Origin: an uncultured Phycisphaerae bacterium
GTDB taxonomy: Bacteria > Planctomycetota > Phycisphaerae > UBA1845 > Fen-1342
Direction of reading: 5' to 3'
DNA length: 64,000 nt
Assembly (NCBI GenBank): GCA_937928595.1
Contig: CALGJV010000008.1
Span: 62,001 to 126,000, forward strand
The notes below the pieces were generated by a model. That model was not told the origin of the DNA and ran no database searches. It was given only the letters and a program-made list of their open reading frames with translations. Positions within the stretch are counted from its first letter, which is position 1; each line of letters starts with the position of its first letter. A program made the translations under genes and the position numbers. Positions 29,187-62,826 of this stretch are shown here, in pieces.

Positions 29187-29730
29187 GGCGGCACTCCCGG
29201 TAACGGATGAGCCGGCTGCGGCGCGAAACTTGACCGCCCGCGCAACTCGCGGAAACGGTTCGCTCAATGGAGCCGGAGCCGTGGCTCGGGCAGGAATGGC
29301 GGCCCGACCATTCGGTGTGCCTGCGCTGCGCCCGCGCGCAACGCACCCAAGTGGAGTTCTTACTCCACCCGGTAAACGCTACCCGGAAACGGTCGAAAGT
29401 CAACTGATCGCTTCCCGCCCCGCCCTGAGCCGCACTGCCACCGGCCGCGCGGCGGCCCCGGTCCCGGCCAAAACGCGGAACGGCGTACCGGCCCCTTTCC
29501 GGCCGGCCAACGCCACATTCTGGGCCGGTCCCGCCCTTCCGCGCCGCATCGCGGGGCGGGGGTCCGATAGGCCGGCGCGGAACCGCTCAACCACCGCGAA
29601 TCGGGGAGTCGGATCGCGCCGAGCCGCGGGCCGATGCGTCAGGGACAGTCGAAAAACAACGGCCCCGTTGGTATACTGTTGAGTGAAGCGCTTCATCCGC
29701 CCGAGCCAAACACGCTGGAGGAAACAGCCC
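29187..29730. other. 544-bp divergent intergenic region
   Basis: It separates the small membrane protein (-) from the large HELGH protein (+). It holds a perfect dyad at 29351-29368 and, near the right end, TATACT at 29672-29677, which is 59 bases before the ATG at 29731 and a likely -10 element. A 46-codon open frame at 29267-29407 has no ribosome-binding site and is not called. No tRNA or other RNA gene was recognised. Confidence 0.4.
29351..29368. promoter_or_regulatory. perfect 18-bp dyad, possible operator
   Basis: GTGGAGT (29351-29357), TCTT, ACTCCAC (29362-29368). It lies about midway between two divergent genes. It could be an operator for either, or a hairpin at the end of a short transcript; the sequence cannot decide. 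Confidence 0.35.
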
Positions 29731-32914: not shown

Positions 32915-33130
32915 CCGCCCCGGGCCGCGGGACCCCGCCGGCCGCCCGTCGGCCGTCCCGCAGCCCGGGGCCCAACCCGCTGGTCGCGCCCCGCGCGGCG
33001 CGGGGGACGCGCTTCCCCCGCCAATTCCCGCCCAACGCCAACGCACGCGCACACCGGCCGCCCGCGCCGCTCGCCCGTGCGACACCCTTCCCGTGCGGGC
33101 GCTCCCCCCGCGCCCGCGCAGGAGGCACGC

Positions 33131-33655
33131 ATGAATCAGCGGCACACGGAGTTCTTCGGACCGGACCTCGCCCGCGGCCCGTTCAGCTCGCAGCGGATCG
33201 AGACCAGCGCGCTCCAGATCGCCACCGCGCTCGCCCAGCTCCGCGCGCCCCTCACGCGCAGCGACGACGCCCTGCGCGGCCACGCGGCCTTCATCCGCGA
33301 GCTGGCCGACCGGCTGGCGCCCGACTGGGCTGCGAACATCGGCCTGGCAGTGCTGCCGGAGGTCTCGGACACGATCCGCCTGACGGTCACGACGCCGATC
33401 GGCACGCACAGCCTGCTCGAGCTCTGGCTGGCGGACGGGCCGGGCGGCGGCCTGACGACGCTGGCGCCGACGAGCGTGAGCTTCGGCGTGGGCACCGTGC
33501 TTGAGACCGTCGTGAACGGCAAGCACTACCGCGTGCTGACCTCGGAGGCCGGCGTGATCGATGTGACTGTCACGTACCCGGGCACGCGCTCCTGGTATTG
33601 GGCGGTGACCCGGCTGGGCCGCGTGTACTACTCGTCGCGGCTGTACTTCGCGTAA
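33131..33655 (+). CDS. unknown protein, 174 residues
   Basis: No family was recognised. The protein has no signal peptide or membrane segment. Residues 20-70 look helical (IETSALQIATALAQL; DDALRGHAAFIRELADRLAP), and from about residue 75 there are predicted beta strands (TIRLTVTTPIGTHSLLELWL; TVLETVVNGKHYRVLTSE; VIDVTVTYPGTRSWYWAV). The start at 33131 has AGGAGG five bases upstream. It sits between the HELGH protein and convergent mutS2, with 21 bases to the mutS2 stop. The composition is like the neighbours, so there is no sign of recent transfer. Confidence 0.6.
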   Translation: MNQRHTEFFGPDLARGPFSSQRIETSALQIATALAQLRAPLTRSDDALRGHAAFIRELADRLAPDWAANIGLAVLPEVSDTIRLTVTTPIGTHSLLELWLADGPGGGLTTLAPTSVSFGVGTVLETVVNGKHYRVLTSEAGVIDVTVTYPGTRSWYWAVTRLGRVYYSSRLYFA

Positions 33656-33676: not shown

Positions 33677-36484
33677 TCAGGTCGGCGCCGCCCCGGTCAC
33701 GTCACTGTCCGCCGAGGGCGGGGCATCTGTGACCGACGCAATGATCCGCCCGTCGGGTTCGGTCGATGGTGCCTCGGGTGATGGAGCCGCCTGTGCCTCG
33801 GTCGTGTCGATCGGCTCCGCCCCTTCCGCTGCCGCCGGGCCTTCGCCTGTCCGTCCGGCGGACGCCTCGCCGCCCTCGGCAGCCGTCGCCGACGCGTCGG
33901 TGACCGCGCTCCCCGCCGCGACCGGCCCGGCCGTCGCTCCAGCCCCGGAACCCGCAGCCGCAGGACTGCCGGTCGCACCGGCCGCGGATCGCTTCGGCGG
34001 CTCGGGCGGCGCGACTCGCGCCAGTCCGCTATACGGCACCTCGACCTCGAGCAATCCCACGCTCACCACGACGACCTGTTTGGCCGCCTTCACACGCACC
34101 ACGCGCCCTTCGCGGTGGAAGCGCTTGACGTAAACCGCCTCGAGCGGCTGAAGCGCTGCCGCCTGCGCGTCGCTGAGCGGCACAAGCCTCGGCTCGGGAC
34201 GCGGCGTCGGCGCGCCCGGTCCGCCGCTCCGCGGCCCCGCCGGCCGCGGGCCGCCCGGCCCCGCGCCGTGGCGCTCGCCGGCCCCGCCGCCCGGCCGCTC
34301 CCCGCGCGGGCGATCCGGTCGACCGGTGGGCACGCCGCCGCGCGGTCCTTCGGGGCGGGATCCCGGCGGACCCCCGCGCCCCTGCGAGCCCGGTCCGCCG
34401 CCGAGGCCCGCCCCCGGCGTGTCGCCGCGCTCCGGTGGGCCGTGCGCCTCGGCCCGGCCGCCGGCGAAGGCACCACCCTGCCGGGCCGCGTGCTGCCGCG
34501 CCCGGCGGCGGGCGCGCCGGCCGAGCTCGGTCGGGGCGACGGCGGTAGGCGGCGGGTTGCGGGGCGGCGGCGGGGGCGTCTCGGGCGGGAGGATGTCCCC
34601 GAGGGGCACCTCGACGGCGAACGCCCCCACGTCGACCTCGGCGCGGTGCTGGTCGAGCCGCATCCGCACGATCTTCCCGTCGCGGTCGAAGTTCCGCACG
34701 CGGACGGCGTCGCCCGGCTGGAGATGGACCACGCGCTGCACCCACCGGTGAAAATCCTGCTGCTGCCGCTCCAGGTGCGCGCGGGCCTCGTGGGCCGCGC
34801 TCTGCGCCCGGTCGGCGGCCAGGCGCGCGGTCTCGGCGTCGCGCCGGGCGTCCTCGGCGGCGCGCTTCACGCGGCGCGTGTCGTTCAGCGCCGCCTGCAA
34901 GGCGCGGGCCCGCGGCGACAGCGACCGCCGCGCGGCCGCGATCATCCGCTTGGGCAGGCCCAGGCGGGCGGCAACGTCGATGGCGTTGCTCTGGCCGGCT
35001 TCGCCGATGCGGACGTGGTAAGTTGGCCGCAGCGTCTCGATATCGAACTCGACGCAGGCGTTCTCCGCGCCCTCGTGCACGAGGGCGTACGACTTCAGCG
35101 CCCCGAGGTGCGTCGTCACGATCGCGCGGCAGTGCAGGCGCAGGAGCTCGTCGAGCAGCGCCCGGCCGAGCGCGGCGCCCTCGTCCGGGTCGGTCCCGGC
35201 GCCCAGCTCGTCGATCAGCATGAGCGCCCGCGGGCCGGCGTGACGCAGCATGTCGAGCAGGCGGGTCAGGTGTCCGCTGAACGTACTGAGCGACTGCTGC
35301 ATGCTCTGTTCATCGCCCACGTCGATGAGCACGTGGCTGAACAGCCCGAAGACGCTGCCCTCGTCCGCCGGCACCGGCAACCCGGCCTGCACCATCAGGC
35401 TGAGCAGCCCGACCGTCTTGAGCATGACCGTCTTGCCGCCCGTGTTCGGCCCCGTGACGATCAGGAGCTGAAAGTCCTCGCCGAGGCGGTAGTCGATCGG
35501 CACGACCTCGAACGGCGGCTCGCCCGCGGCCTGGCGGCGGCGCGCCAGGTCCACCAGCAGCGGGTGCCGGGCCTGCCGCACGCGAAGCACCGCGTCGTCG
35601 CTGATTTCCGGACAGCGCAGCTCGAAGTCGAGCGCGAAGCGCAGCTTGGCCGTGATCAGGTCGAGCACCGCCAGCGTATCGAGCGTGTGGCGGATCGCCT
35701 CCGCATTGAGGTGAATCTCGTGCGCGAGCTCCCACAGCAGCCGCCCGATCTCCTCCTGCTCCTCGCTCCGCAGGTTGGAGATGCGGTTGTTGAGCTCGAC
35801 GATCTCGGCCGGTTCCACGTACATCGTCGCGCCGCTGTCCGACGTGCGATGCACGATGCCGGGGACGCGCCCGCGGTACTCCGTCCGCAGCGGCAGCACG
35901 ATCCGGTCGCCGTGAAACGTGTGGTTCGGATATTGCAGGTAGCGCCGCACGTTGCCGTCGTGCAGCAGCTTGTCGATCGTCTCGCCGATCGCGCTCTCCG
36001 CCTCGCCGATCGCCGCGCGGATCTGCCGCAGCTTCGGGCTGGCGTCGTCGCGCACGCGGCCGCGCTCGTCGATGACGCTCCGGATGCGGTCCGCGATCGT
36101 GCGGAAGTCGCCGACGCGCCCCGCCAGGTGCGCGAGCTCGGGAAACTTCTCGGGCGACAGCCCGCGCAGGTATTCGGCGACGTTGTGCGTGCCGCCCAGC
36201 GTGTCGCCGATTCGGGCGACGTCCTCCACGGTCACGCGCAGCGGCGGCGCACAGCGCGGCAGCAGATCGCGGATGTCGCTGATCCCGCCGAAGGGCGGCA
36301 GGCCCCGCTCCTCCTTCAGCGTGCGGAGCTCCGTCACCTGCGCCAGCCAGCGCCGCACGAGCGCCGCCCGCGTGACCGGGTGTACGACGCTCGCGAGCGA
36401 CCGGCCCAGCCCCGACAGGGCGTACCCAGCCAGCAACTCGCGCACCCTGACAAAATCCAGCCGCTCCAGTGAATGCTCATCCAT
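33677..36484 (-). CDS. mutS2: MutS2 family ATPase with duplicated KOW-like module and no Smr domain
   Basis: A 935-residue MutS2-type protein (Bacillus MutS2 is about 785). The core domain III/clamp and ATPase are normal: Walker A TGPNTGGKT (Lys351), Walker B LMLIDELGAGTDPDEG, and THLGALKSYALVHEGAEN. A coiled-coil and KOW-like module follow (LQPGDAVRVRNFDRDGKIVR, about residues 580-630). Then comes an unusual Gly/Pro/Arg-rich linker (about 630-760), a second KOW-like module (LQPLEAVYVKRFHREGRVVR, about 770-820), and an Ala/Glu-rich acidic tail. The Smr endonuclease domain that ends canonical MutS2, with its LDLHG and HGxG motifs, is not present. MutS2 binds branched DNA or collided ribosomes depending on the species; here only the ATPase/clamp part is certain. 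Confidence 0.9.
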   Translation of the reverse strand: MDEHSLERLDFVRVRELLAGYALSGLGRSLASVVHPVTRAALVRRWLAQVTELRTLKEERGLPPFGGISDIRDLLPRCAPPLRVTVEDVARIGDTLGGTHNVAEYLRGLSPEKFPELAHLAGRVGDFRTIADRIRSVIDERGRVRDDASPKLRQIRAAIGEAESAIGETIDKLLHDGNVRRYLQYPNHTFHGDRIVLPLRTEYRGRVPGIVHRTSDSGATMYVEPAEIVELNNRISNLRSEEQEEIGRLLWELAHEIHLNAEAIRHTLDTLAVLDLITAKLRFALDFELRCPEISDDAVLRVRQARHPLLVDLARRRQAAGEPPFEVVPIDYRLGEDFQLLIVTGPNTGGKTVMLKTVGLLSLMVQAGLPVPADEGSVFGLFSHVLIDVGDEQSMQQSLSTFSGHLTRLLDMLRHAGPRALMLIDELGAGTDPDEGAALGRALLDELLRLHCRAIVTTHLGALKSYALVHEGAENACVEFDIETLRPTYHVRIGEAGQSNAIDVAARLGLPKRMIAAARRSLSPRARALQAALNDTRRVKRAAEDARRDAETARLAADRAQSAAHEARAHLERQQQDFHRWVQRVVHLQPGDAVRVRNFDRDGKIVRMRLDQHRAEVDVGAFAVEVPLGDILPPETPPPPPRNPPPTAVAPTELGRRARRRARQHAARQGGAFAGGRAEAHGPPERGDTPGAGLGGGPGSQGRGGPPGSRPEGPRGGVPTGRPDRPRGERPGGGAGERHGAGPGGPRPAGPRSGGPGAPTPRPEPRLVPLSDAQAAALQPLEAVYVKRFHREGRVVRVKAAKQVVVVSVGLLEVEVPYSGLARVAPPEPPKRSAAGATGSPAAAGSGAGATAGPVAAGSAVTDASATAAEGGEASAGRTGEGPAAAEGAEPIDTTEAQAAPSPEAPSTEPDGRIIASVTDAPPSADSDVTGAAPT

Positions 36485-36567: not shown

Positions 36568-37680
36568 ATGCGAACCCGACCATCTTCTTCAAGCACACTC
36601 GGGCCGCTCCTGGCCGTTCTGGCCGTCGGAGCCGCGTGGGCAGAGCCGCCTGCGACGACCTCCGCCCCCGGCGAGCCCCCGCTCGTGGCCCGCGCCCGGA
36701 CGCTCCTCGCGGACGGCCAGGCGGCGGCCGCCGTCGACCTCCTGACCCCCCGCGCCGACGAGCTGCCGGCCGAGGGCGTCGCGCTCTACGCGGCCGCGTG
36801 CCGGGCGGCCGGCCGGTCCGCCGAAGACGTTCTCCGCCGCGCGGTCGCGCGAAGCCCCGGCGAGTCGGCGGTGCAACTGGCCTGGATCGACGCAGCCCTC
36901 GAAGCCGGGCTCTACGCCGTCGCGCTCCAGCGCATCGCGGCGGCCGGACCGCTCGCCGATCGGCCGGAGTTCGAGTGGCGGGCGGCGCGGGCGCACTTCG
37001 CGATGGGCGCGCTGCTCGGGGCCGCGGAGGTGCGCACGGTTCCGGGGGGGCGTCCCGGACAGTTCGTCGGCCGCCTGCTGGTCGTCGAGGAGCGCCCCGG
37101 CACCGACCGGTTTCTCTGCTGCCCGCCGGCCTCGGCGCTGTATCAACTCCGCCGGGCGCTGGACGACGGCTTCGACGAGCCCGCGGCGCACGTGCTTCAC
37201 GCGCGCATCTGGCAGCGCCTCGGCCGGTCGGAGGTCGCCTGGGCCGTCCTGCGCATGCGGGCCGCGGCGATCCTCGCGCAGGGGGACGACGAGGCCCTGA
37301 GAGAGTACGCCGACGCGGCCCTGCGGGCCGAAGCCGTCGACGAGTACCTGCGGGCCGTGCGGCGGCGAGCCGAGCGGAGCCCCGGGCAGCGCGCCGCCGT
37401 GCTGGCCGAGGGCTGCCGCGCCGTGGCCGACCACTACGCGCGCGCGGGCGACGAAACGCTGCACCTGCAATGGCTGTACCGGGCGCTCGAGCACGCCCCC
37501 GATGACGCCGCCCTGTGGTTGGCGGTCGGCGACGCGGAGTGGACCCGCGCCGCGCAGCCGGCCGCGCAGCGCGCCTACCGGCGCGTGCTCGCGCTCGCCC
37601 CCGACACCCCGCGGCGCGCGGAGCTGCTGGAGCGCCTCGCGGCCGAGCCGGCCGCCGACTCGCCGCGGCGGGGCGAGTAA
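36568..37680 (+). CDS. exported TPR-like repeat protein
   Basis: A 370-residue protein with a signal peptide (LGPLLAVLAVGAAWA, cleavage near AWA|EP) followed by TPR-like helical repeats. Recognisable units are ARTLLADGQAAAAVDLLTP, AWIDAALEAGLYAVALQRI and LWLAVGDAEWTRAAQPAAQRAY followed by a typical repeat end. No enzyme motif was seen. It is divergent from mutS2, 83 bases away, and followed by a -10 element and yceI. The role is probably a scaffold in the cell envelope. Confidence 0.65.
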   Translation: MRTRPSSSSTLGPLLAVLAVGAAWAEPPATTSAPGEPPLVARARTLLADGQAAAAVDLLTPRADELPAEGVALYAAACRAAGRSAEDVLRRAVARSPGESAVQLAWIDAALEAGLYAVALQRIAAAGPLADRPEFEWRAARAHFAMGALLGAAEVRTVPGGRPGQFVGRLLVVEERPGTDRFLCCPPASALYQLRRALDDGFDEPAAHVLHARIWQRLGRSEVAWAVLRMRAAAILAQGDDEALREYADAALRAEAVDEYLRAVRRRAERSPGQRAAVLAEGCRAVADHYARAGDETLHLQWLYRALEHAPDDAALWLAVGDAEWTRAAQPAAQRAYRRVLALAPDTPRRAELLERLAAEPAADSPRRGE

Positions 37681-61941: not shown

Positions 61942-62826
61942 ATGCAGATTCTCGGCATCGTCAACATCACGCGCGACTCGTTCTCCGACGGCGGCCGCTA
62001 TCTCGACCCGTCCGCGGCGGTCGCGCACGCCCGCGCCCTCCGCGCCGCCGGCGCCGACATCCTCGACCTCGGCGCCGAGTCCACGCACCCCGACGGCGCC
62101 GACGTCAACGCCGAGGAGGAATGCGCCCGCCTCGCACCGGTCCTGACGGCGCTCAAGGCTGAGAGCGCGGTAGTGTCGGTCGACACGAGCAAGCCCGCCG
62201 TGATGCGTTTCGCCCTCGCGCACGGCGCTGACTTCATCAACGACGTCACGGCGCTGCGCGATCCCGAGAGCGTCGCCGCCGTGCGCGCCGCGCCCGCCCG
62301 CCTCATCCTGATGCACTCCGTCGTCCCCCAGGCCCGCGCACGGCGCAGCCCCCTGCCGGGCGCGACACCGCCCGACCCCGCCGACCTCGTCGCCCACATC
62401 CGCGACTTCTTCGCCGAGCGCATCGCCACGCTTACCGCGGCCGGTATCGACCGGGTCCGCCTGATCCTCGACCCCGGCATGGGTTTCTTCCTCGGCCCGC
62501 GGCCCGAGCACAGCCTGGCCGTGCTCCGCAACCTGCGCGCGTTAGCGGCCCTCGGCTGCCCGCTGTGCGTTAGCACATCCCGCAAGTCGTTCATCGGGGC
62601 GCTGCTGGGCGACGCCGCCGGCCCGCGCCCGGTTGACCGGCGGGCCGCCGGTACGCTGGCGACGGAACTGTGGGCCGCGACGCAGGGGGCGGATTTCATC
62701 CGCACGCACGAGCCGGGCCCGCTGCGCGACGCGTGGACGCTCTGGCAGGCGCTCGCCCGGCCGACCGGATCCCCCCGCTACTCCGGGAACCGCCACTCCT
62801 GTCCCGACCACGGAGCGACCCTGTAG
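61942..62826 (+). CDS. folP: dihydropteroate synthase
   Basis: A 294-residue TIM-barrel enzyme that joins p-aminobenzoate and dihydropterin pyrophosphate in folate synthesis. Signature 1 is [20 protein letters not shown] and signature 2 is [16 protein letters not shown]. Other landmarks are [22 protein letters not shown] and STSRKSFIG. The start at the MQILG word has only a weak ribosome-binding site; an ATG at 61913 would add nine residues. The last 16 residues overlap the 3' end of the convergent pseudopilin gene by 49 bases, and the [16 protein letters not shown] tail is not family-like. Confidence 0.93.

Follow-up and report, generated by a model that had tools for sequence, protein, structure and literature searches.

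Can a MutS2 protein that lacks the Smr domain rely on a second KOW barrel instead, and for what? The question is raised by a gene of an uncultured bacterium of the Phycisphaerae (Planctomycetota), found in the 64,000-nucleotide stretch of contig CALGJV010000008.1 that was analyzed here (positions 62,001 to 126,000; hereafter the window). The original prediction, made from the sequence alone, described a canonical MutS2 that had exchanged Smr for a duplicated KOW-like module, possibly in place of nuclease function. The best-studied relative is MutS2 of B. subtilis, which splits collided ribosomes. Its KOW domain binds uS10, and its Smr domain mainly recruits; deletion of Smr strongly reduces ribosome binding (PMC10897456). 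Mutants in KOW or Smr lose binding and keep partial function, whereas ATPase mutants do not (PMC10897456).

A MutS2 core with two KOW barrels

The mutS2 open reading frame has its boundaries exactly at 33677 and 36484 and lies on the minus strand, which had not been specified before. The gene and the parts of its product are as follows:

33677–36484 (−): mutS2 gene, 935 aa; open frame, TIGR01069 643.5 bits
35465–36484 (−): MutS2 core, lever and clamp, residues 1–340; TIGR01069 match starting at residue 3, phmmer match to 7qv3/8qpp
34919–35464 (−): ATPase (MutS domain V), residues 341–522; PF00488 102.1 bits, Walker A GPNTGGKT with Lys351
34730–34915 (−): shortened helical arm, residues 524–585; AlphaFold2 model, spacing table and alignment
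34583–34723 (−): KOW1, MSSS SH3-like barrel, residues 588–634; PF20297 38.2 bits, local profile at 588–634
34181–34582 (−): Gly/Pro/Arg-rich basic linker, residues 635–768; 134 aa, net charge +12, 48% Gly+Pro
34013–34153 (−): KOW2, second MSSS barrel, residues 778–824; PF20297 27.0 bits, profile match to KOW1, AlphaFold2, Foldseek
33680–34009 (−): low-complexity, Ala-rich acidic C-terminal tail, residues 826–935; net charge −11

The whole protein scores well above the curated cut-off of 400 bits for the NCBIfam family TIGR01069 and thus belongs to MutS2, with the best stretch of the match stopping at profile position 568 of 790. Residues 3–565 match the B. subtilis MutS2 chains 7qv3 and 8qpp (phmmer, E about 1e-112). 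The ATPase is intact and has its Walker A lysine at residue 351, as first described, and a Pfam scan of the protein gave no match to the mismatch-recognition domains MutS I and II. Downstream of the ATPase, a KOW domain is recognized by PF20297 (MSSS) at residues 590–631.

MSSS denotes an SH3-like domain that occurs in MutS2 and in Smr proteins. When the two copies are scanned apart, the second also exceeds the gathering cut-off of this family (27.0 bits for a cut-off of 26.8), and its AlphaFold2 model is a five-strand, SH3-like barrel with a mean pLDDT of 89.5, which places KOW2 in the family as well. Profiles of KOW1 and KOW2, both built from the same 12 genomes of relatives, match each other with a probability of 98.7 (E 3.5e-16, 36% identity over 50 columns). 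The second KOW-like segment was therefore correctly anticipated: the protein is a MutS2 core without Smr that carries two genuine KOW-type barrels. The top Foldseek match of the KOW2 model is the KOW domain of B. subtilis MutS2 on a collided disome (8r55_z). Tudor and NusG/Spt5-type KOW barrels score close behind and resemble the model about as well, so the partner of KOW2 cannot be read from the fold alone. Sequence searches of KOW2 and of the arm plus KOW1 against solved structures returned no real relative.

Conservation differs strongly along the C-terminal half. KOW2 is present in all 13 members of the window's family with a complete C-terminus, has invariant residues and shows a mean identity of 59%, whereas the linker reaches 36% and the tail 29%. 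The linker, whose length and composition agree with the roughly 130-residue Gly/Pro/Arg segment first described, carries a positive net charge in each of the 13 proteins compared (+4 to +13); its sequence is poorly conserved and its length varies from 49 to 134 aa, and the long Gly/Pro/Arg form of the window's protein is not conserved as such. The acidic character of the tail holds for the window's protein and is not a conserved trait, as tails in relatives range from net −7 to +3 and from about 4 to 110 aa. In B. subtilis MutS2, the uS10-facing KOW loop has been mutated (Q668xxILK; PMC10897456). This loop reads QIGILK in the solved sequence (Q668-I-G-I671-L672-K673) and has as its aligned counterparts DVGAFA in KOW1 and SVGLLE in KOW2. 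Both KOW families retain a hydrophobic residue at the position of L672, and Lys673 corresponds to an invariant Glu in KOW2. KOW1 aligns to residues 640–683 of B. subtilis MutS2 through a broader KOW1 profile, and weakly (E 0.026).

The genes around mutS2 gave no functional link. A gene divergent from mutS2 at 36568–37680 (+) has weak TPR similarity and, by eye, a signal-peptide-like start; it is syntenic in ten relatives at 39–50% identity. A small convergent gene at 33077–33655 (+) is 59–60% identical in five relatives and has no family match. Farther away, an nhaA-I riboswitch lies at 29294–29348 (−) (Rfam RF03057, 51.5 bits vs a gathering score of 37).

Loss of Smr in Planctomycetota

Pfam scans of the protein found no Smr domain (PF01713), in agreement with the original prediction, and the C-terminal Smr of the canonical core–ATPase–KOW–Smr architecture is missing. 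A search of the whole 3.69-Mb genome (97.9% complete) also found no Smr match, stand-alone genes included; the same kind of search was positive in 9 of 14 known genomes used as a control. An Smr domain with DxH/GxG motifs, as in Smr nuclease proteins, was found neither in the protein nor in the genome.

This absence is not special to the window's protein. Smr loss is old and common in Planctomycetota. MutS2 above cut-off occurs in 47 of 149 planctomycete genomes, and only three of these (G033, G081 and G115) have Smr in the MutS2 frame; since the 47 include partial matches, the remaining 44 Smr-less proteins are an upper figure. An Smr match anywhere in the genome was found in 17 of the 149. 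Within Phycisphaerae, both types of MutS2 occur, with Smr-bearing proteins (L104, L106, L110 and L111) in families f83 and f90. Smr-less MutS2 is already known in plants, where MutS2A lacks Smr like the window's MutS2 and is a plastid-derived paralogue beside the Smr-bearing MutS2B; the passages on it mention no second KOW (PMC12292046).

Distribution and order of KOW gains

The number of KOW domains was surveyed in samples of 149 planctomycete genomes, 298 Phycisphaerae genomes and 392 genomes across the phylum. In the window's family, 12 of 15 genomes have an MSSS match and 11 have two, which in one genome (G391) lie on separate contigs. Another genome, G252, shows one MSSS at the search threshold, and the same C-terminus read as L009 shows a second by the local profile. 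Exactly one KOW was found in all 47 genomes of the same order that have a match (families f78–f82). Two MSSS matches appear again in families f89 and f95, which belong to Phycisphaerae but not to the window's order; their proteins (L084–L103), when read through, have after KOW1 a second helix that comes with a degenerate KOW, and then a third KOW behind a linker. Among the 392 genomes across the phylum, the window's genome alone has two MSSS matches in one frame.

Other Smr-less planctomycete MutS2 proteins (for example L028, L032 and L016) share the core with the window's protein. They have one KOW where the window's protein has two, and those examined end shortly after it. The arm of L016-type proteins is also short, whereas outside the window's group it is mostly long (about 298). 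The three-KOW proteins of f89/f95 resemble the window's protein in the missing Smr, the short arm and the extra C-terminal KOW modules, and differ from it in the helix with a degenerate KOW and in the third KOW. One further protein, L039 (G065), is Smr-less with a single KOW and has a long RGG-rich C-terminal tail. Both the extra KOW module and the shortened arm are peculiar to small planctomycete groups. Titles and abstracts of openly accessible papers yielded no literature on a multi-KOW MutS2 variant; the multi-KOW form and the two arm lengths described below seem to be new, although Smr-less MutS2 as such is not.

The order of events was read from a tree of the MutS2 core (65 proteins; IQ-TREE quick with SH-aLRT only), unrooted apart from the use of the Smr-bearing rows as outgroup. 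All Smr-less proteins fall on one side of a branch (SH-aLRT 97). The window's two-KOW clade (99) is nested among single-KOW, Smr-less lineages, and f89/f95 form a separate clade (100). The simplest reading of this tree is one loss of Smr followed by gains of KOW. Because single-KOW, Smr-less relatives surround the two-KOW clade, the second KOW is on this tree later than the loss of Smr, and it is therefore not a direct one-for-one swap for the nuclease. Independent gains of extra KOWs in two lineages are favored by parsimony, and a tree in which all multi-KOW proteins are constrained together is not rejected (p 0.43). In a KOW-only tree, poorly resolved with its 52 columns, one clade (99/99) unites the second copies from the window's family, and their grouping with the first copies of the same family is weakly rejected (p 0.04). 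Thus, of the duplication first proposed, the two barrels are genuine, whereas KOW2 does not clearly appear to be a copy of KOW1 of the same protein.

A shortened arm of fixed length

AlphaFold2 models the arm of the window's protein as one 62-residue helix that continues into KOW1. This arm is about 54 residues shorter than that of Smr-bearing and other planctomycete MutS2, and the alignment shows that a distal block is missing from short-arm proteins. Measured from Walker A to KOW1, the spacing is 244 aa both in all 13 two-KOW proteins and in the single-KOW proteins that represent f78–f82 and f87, 243–244 aa in L030 and L049, and 244–262 aa in f89/f95. It is 297–299 aa in the other Smr-less planctomycete MutS2 proteins measured and 294–313 aa in Smr-bearing MutS2. 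One relative, probably L008, is an outlier with a spacing of 208; in the G391 copy of L008, some bases of the arm are unread. Since arm length hardly varies, these values suggest that geometry constrains the arm to one of two states.

Ribosome quality control in the phylum

RqcH and MutS2 are reported to co-occur strongly across bacteria (PMC11633108). In Planctomycetota, an RqcH-type NFACT_N domain scores above cut-off in 67 of 149 genomes. It is present in 33 of 44 genomes with Smr-less MutS2 vs 31 of 102 without MutS2 (p 7e-7, from genome counts that ignore kinship), and, when counted by family, in 24 of 34 families with MutS2 of any kind vs 12 of 43 (p 2e-4, relatedness being handled by the family counts only). 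This co-occurrence suggests a continued role in ribosome quality control for MutS2 that lacks Smr. Phycisphaerae are the exception: none of 298 genomes, the window's own included, has NFACT_N above cut-off. The window's genome reaches 20.7 bits vs a cut-off of 31; it contains SmpB, and RF-1 domains occur in four of its genes, two of which are in short frames.

Proposed function and alternatives

The preferred reading, to which we give about an even chance, is that the protein may be a MutS2-type ATPase that splits stalled or collided ribosomes and is recruited by KOW barrels without Smr. The window's protein shares core, clamp, ABC ATPase and one KOW, in the same order, with B. subtilis MutS2 (PDB 7qv3, 8qpp, 8r55; PMC10897456), and differs from it by the missing Smr, the second KOW on a basic linker and a genome without RqcH. 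The analysis itself establishes the domain layout, the lack of Smr, the conserved KOW2, the constant arm length and the sequence of events on the tree; from what is known of the family in B. subtilis, we infer ribosome binding, splitting, dimerization and uS10 as a partner. Recruitment would then depend on the KOW barrels, in place of an Smr domain inserted between the two ribosomes, with KOW1 positioned at the tip of the shortened arm and KOW2 on the flexible basic linker. If the protein is a dimer like other MutS2 proteins, each dimer would have four KOW barrels, and several weak contacts, at least that of KOW1 with the uS10 site, could provide the affinity given by Smr in Bacillus; ATP turnover would drive the splitting. 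That KOW2 also contacts the ribosome is a guess.

The ATPase, KOW1 and the family relationship support ribosome splitting, which is weakest on the role of KOW2 and on the lack of RqcH. Phycisphaerae are just the group without RqcH, which usually acts as the downstream partner, KOW2 has Glu where B. subtilis has Lys673, and the strong loss of binding upon Smr deletion in B. subtilis also counts against it (PMC10897456). KOW2 is not required for the role of the protein, because single-KOW, short-arm relatives exist. The missing RqcH would fit a rival reading, in which the protein is a MutS2 that binds DNA and works on recombination intermediates, its additional KOW and basic linker increasing the affinity for DNA or RNA. 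The MutS2 of some bacteria binds branched DNA, according to the summary in PMC12292046; the linker has a positive net charge in all proteins compared, and the KOW2 model also resembles the Tudor-type barrels of chromatin proteins. Such a role is nevertheless unlikely: the core matches chains of MutS2 bound to the ribosome, no structure matches KOW2 better than the KOW of MutS2 on a collided ribosome, and in the rest of the phylum Smr-less MutS2 goes along with RqcH.

SH3-like barrels bind many kinds of partner. KOW2 and the linker could thus form a regulatory or oligomerization appendage, for example one that binds a partner in the manner of NusG, and take no part in recruitment to stalled ribosomes. 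The similar scores of NusG and Spt5 KOW barrels, the variable linker length, which fits a loose tether, and the relatives that manage without KOW2 all agree with this idea. The NusG KOW is itself an SH3-like barrel, with a fold similar to KOW2, but it is a domain of a transcription factor in an unrelated protein context, and it binds uS10 (PMC10897456). The conservation of KOW2 across the family and the retention of the hydrophobic loop position used for uS10 make a mere appendage improbable. Least credible, and very improbable, is the strong form of the original idea, in which KOW2 functionally replaces the Smr nuclease. KOW2 does occupy the C-terminal place of Smr in other MutS2 proteins, and no Smr is left in the genome. 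On the tree, however, the loss of Smr precedes the extra KOW, and the same-order genomes make do with a single KOW and, in those examined, no Smr. The nuclease premise is itself doubtful, as B. subtilis MutS2 has Smr yet no mRNA cleavage was seen (PMC10897456). KOW barrels are not known to have nuclease activity.

Implications

The ribosome-splitting reading has a broader version, possible though doubtful: MutS2 of Phycisphaerae may be a differently built rescue machine, without Smr sensing, with a second fixed arm length, with KOWs added at least twice and without RqcH, so that split ribosomes would be handled by another route. The work in B. subtilis left open to what extent MutS2 needs Smr, as the domain recruits and apparently does not cut mRNA. 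Planctomycete MutS2, nearly always Smr-less, with one, two or three KOWs and two arm lengths, is a natural set of variants that allows tests of which part senses collisions and of what the length of the arm measures. The class-wide absence of RqcH makes Phycisphaerae suitable for studying the role of MutS2 apart from the RqcH pathway.
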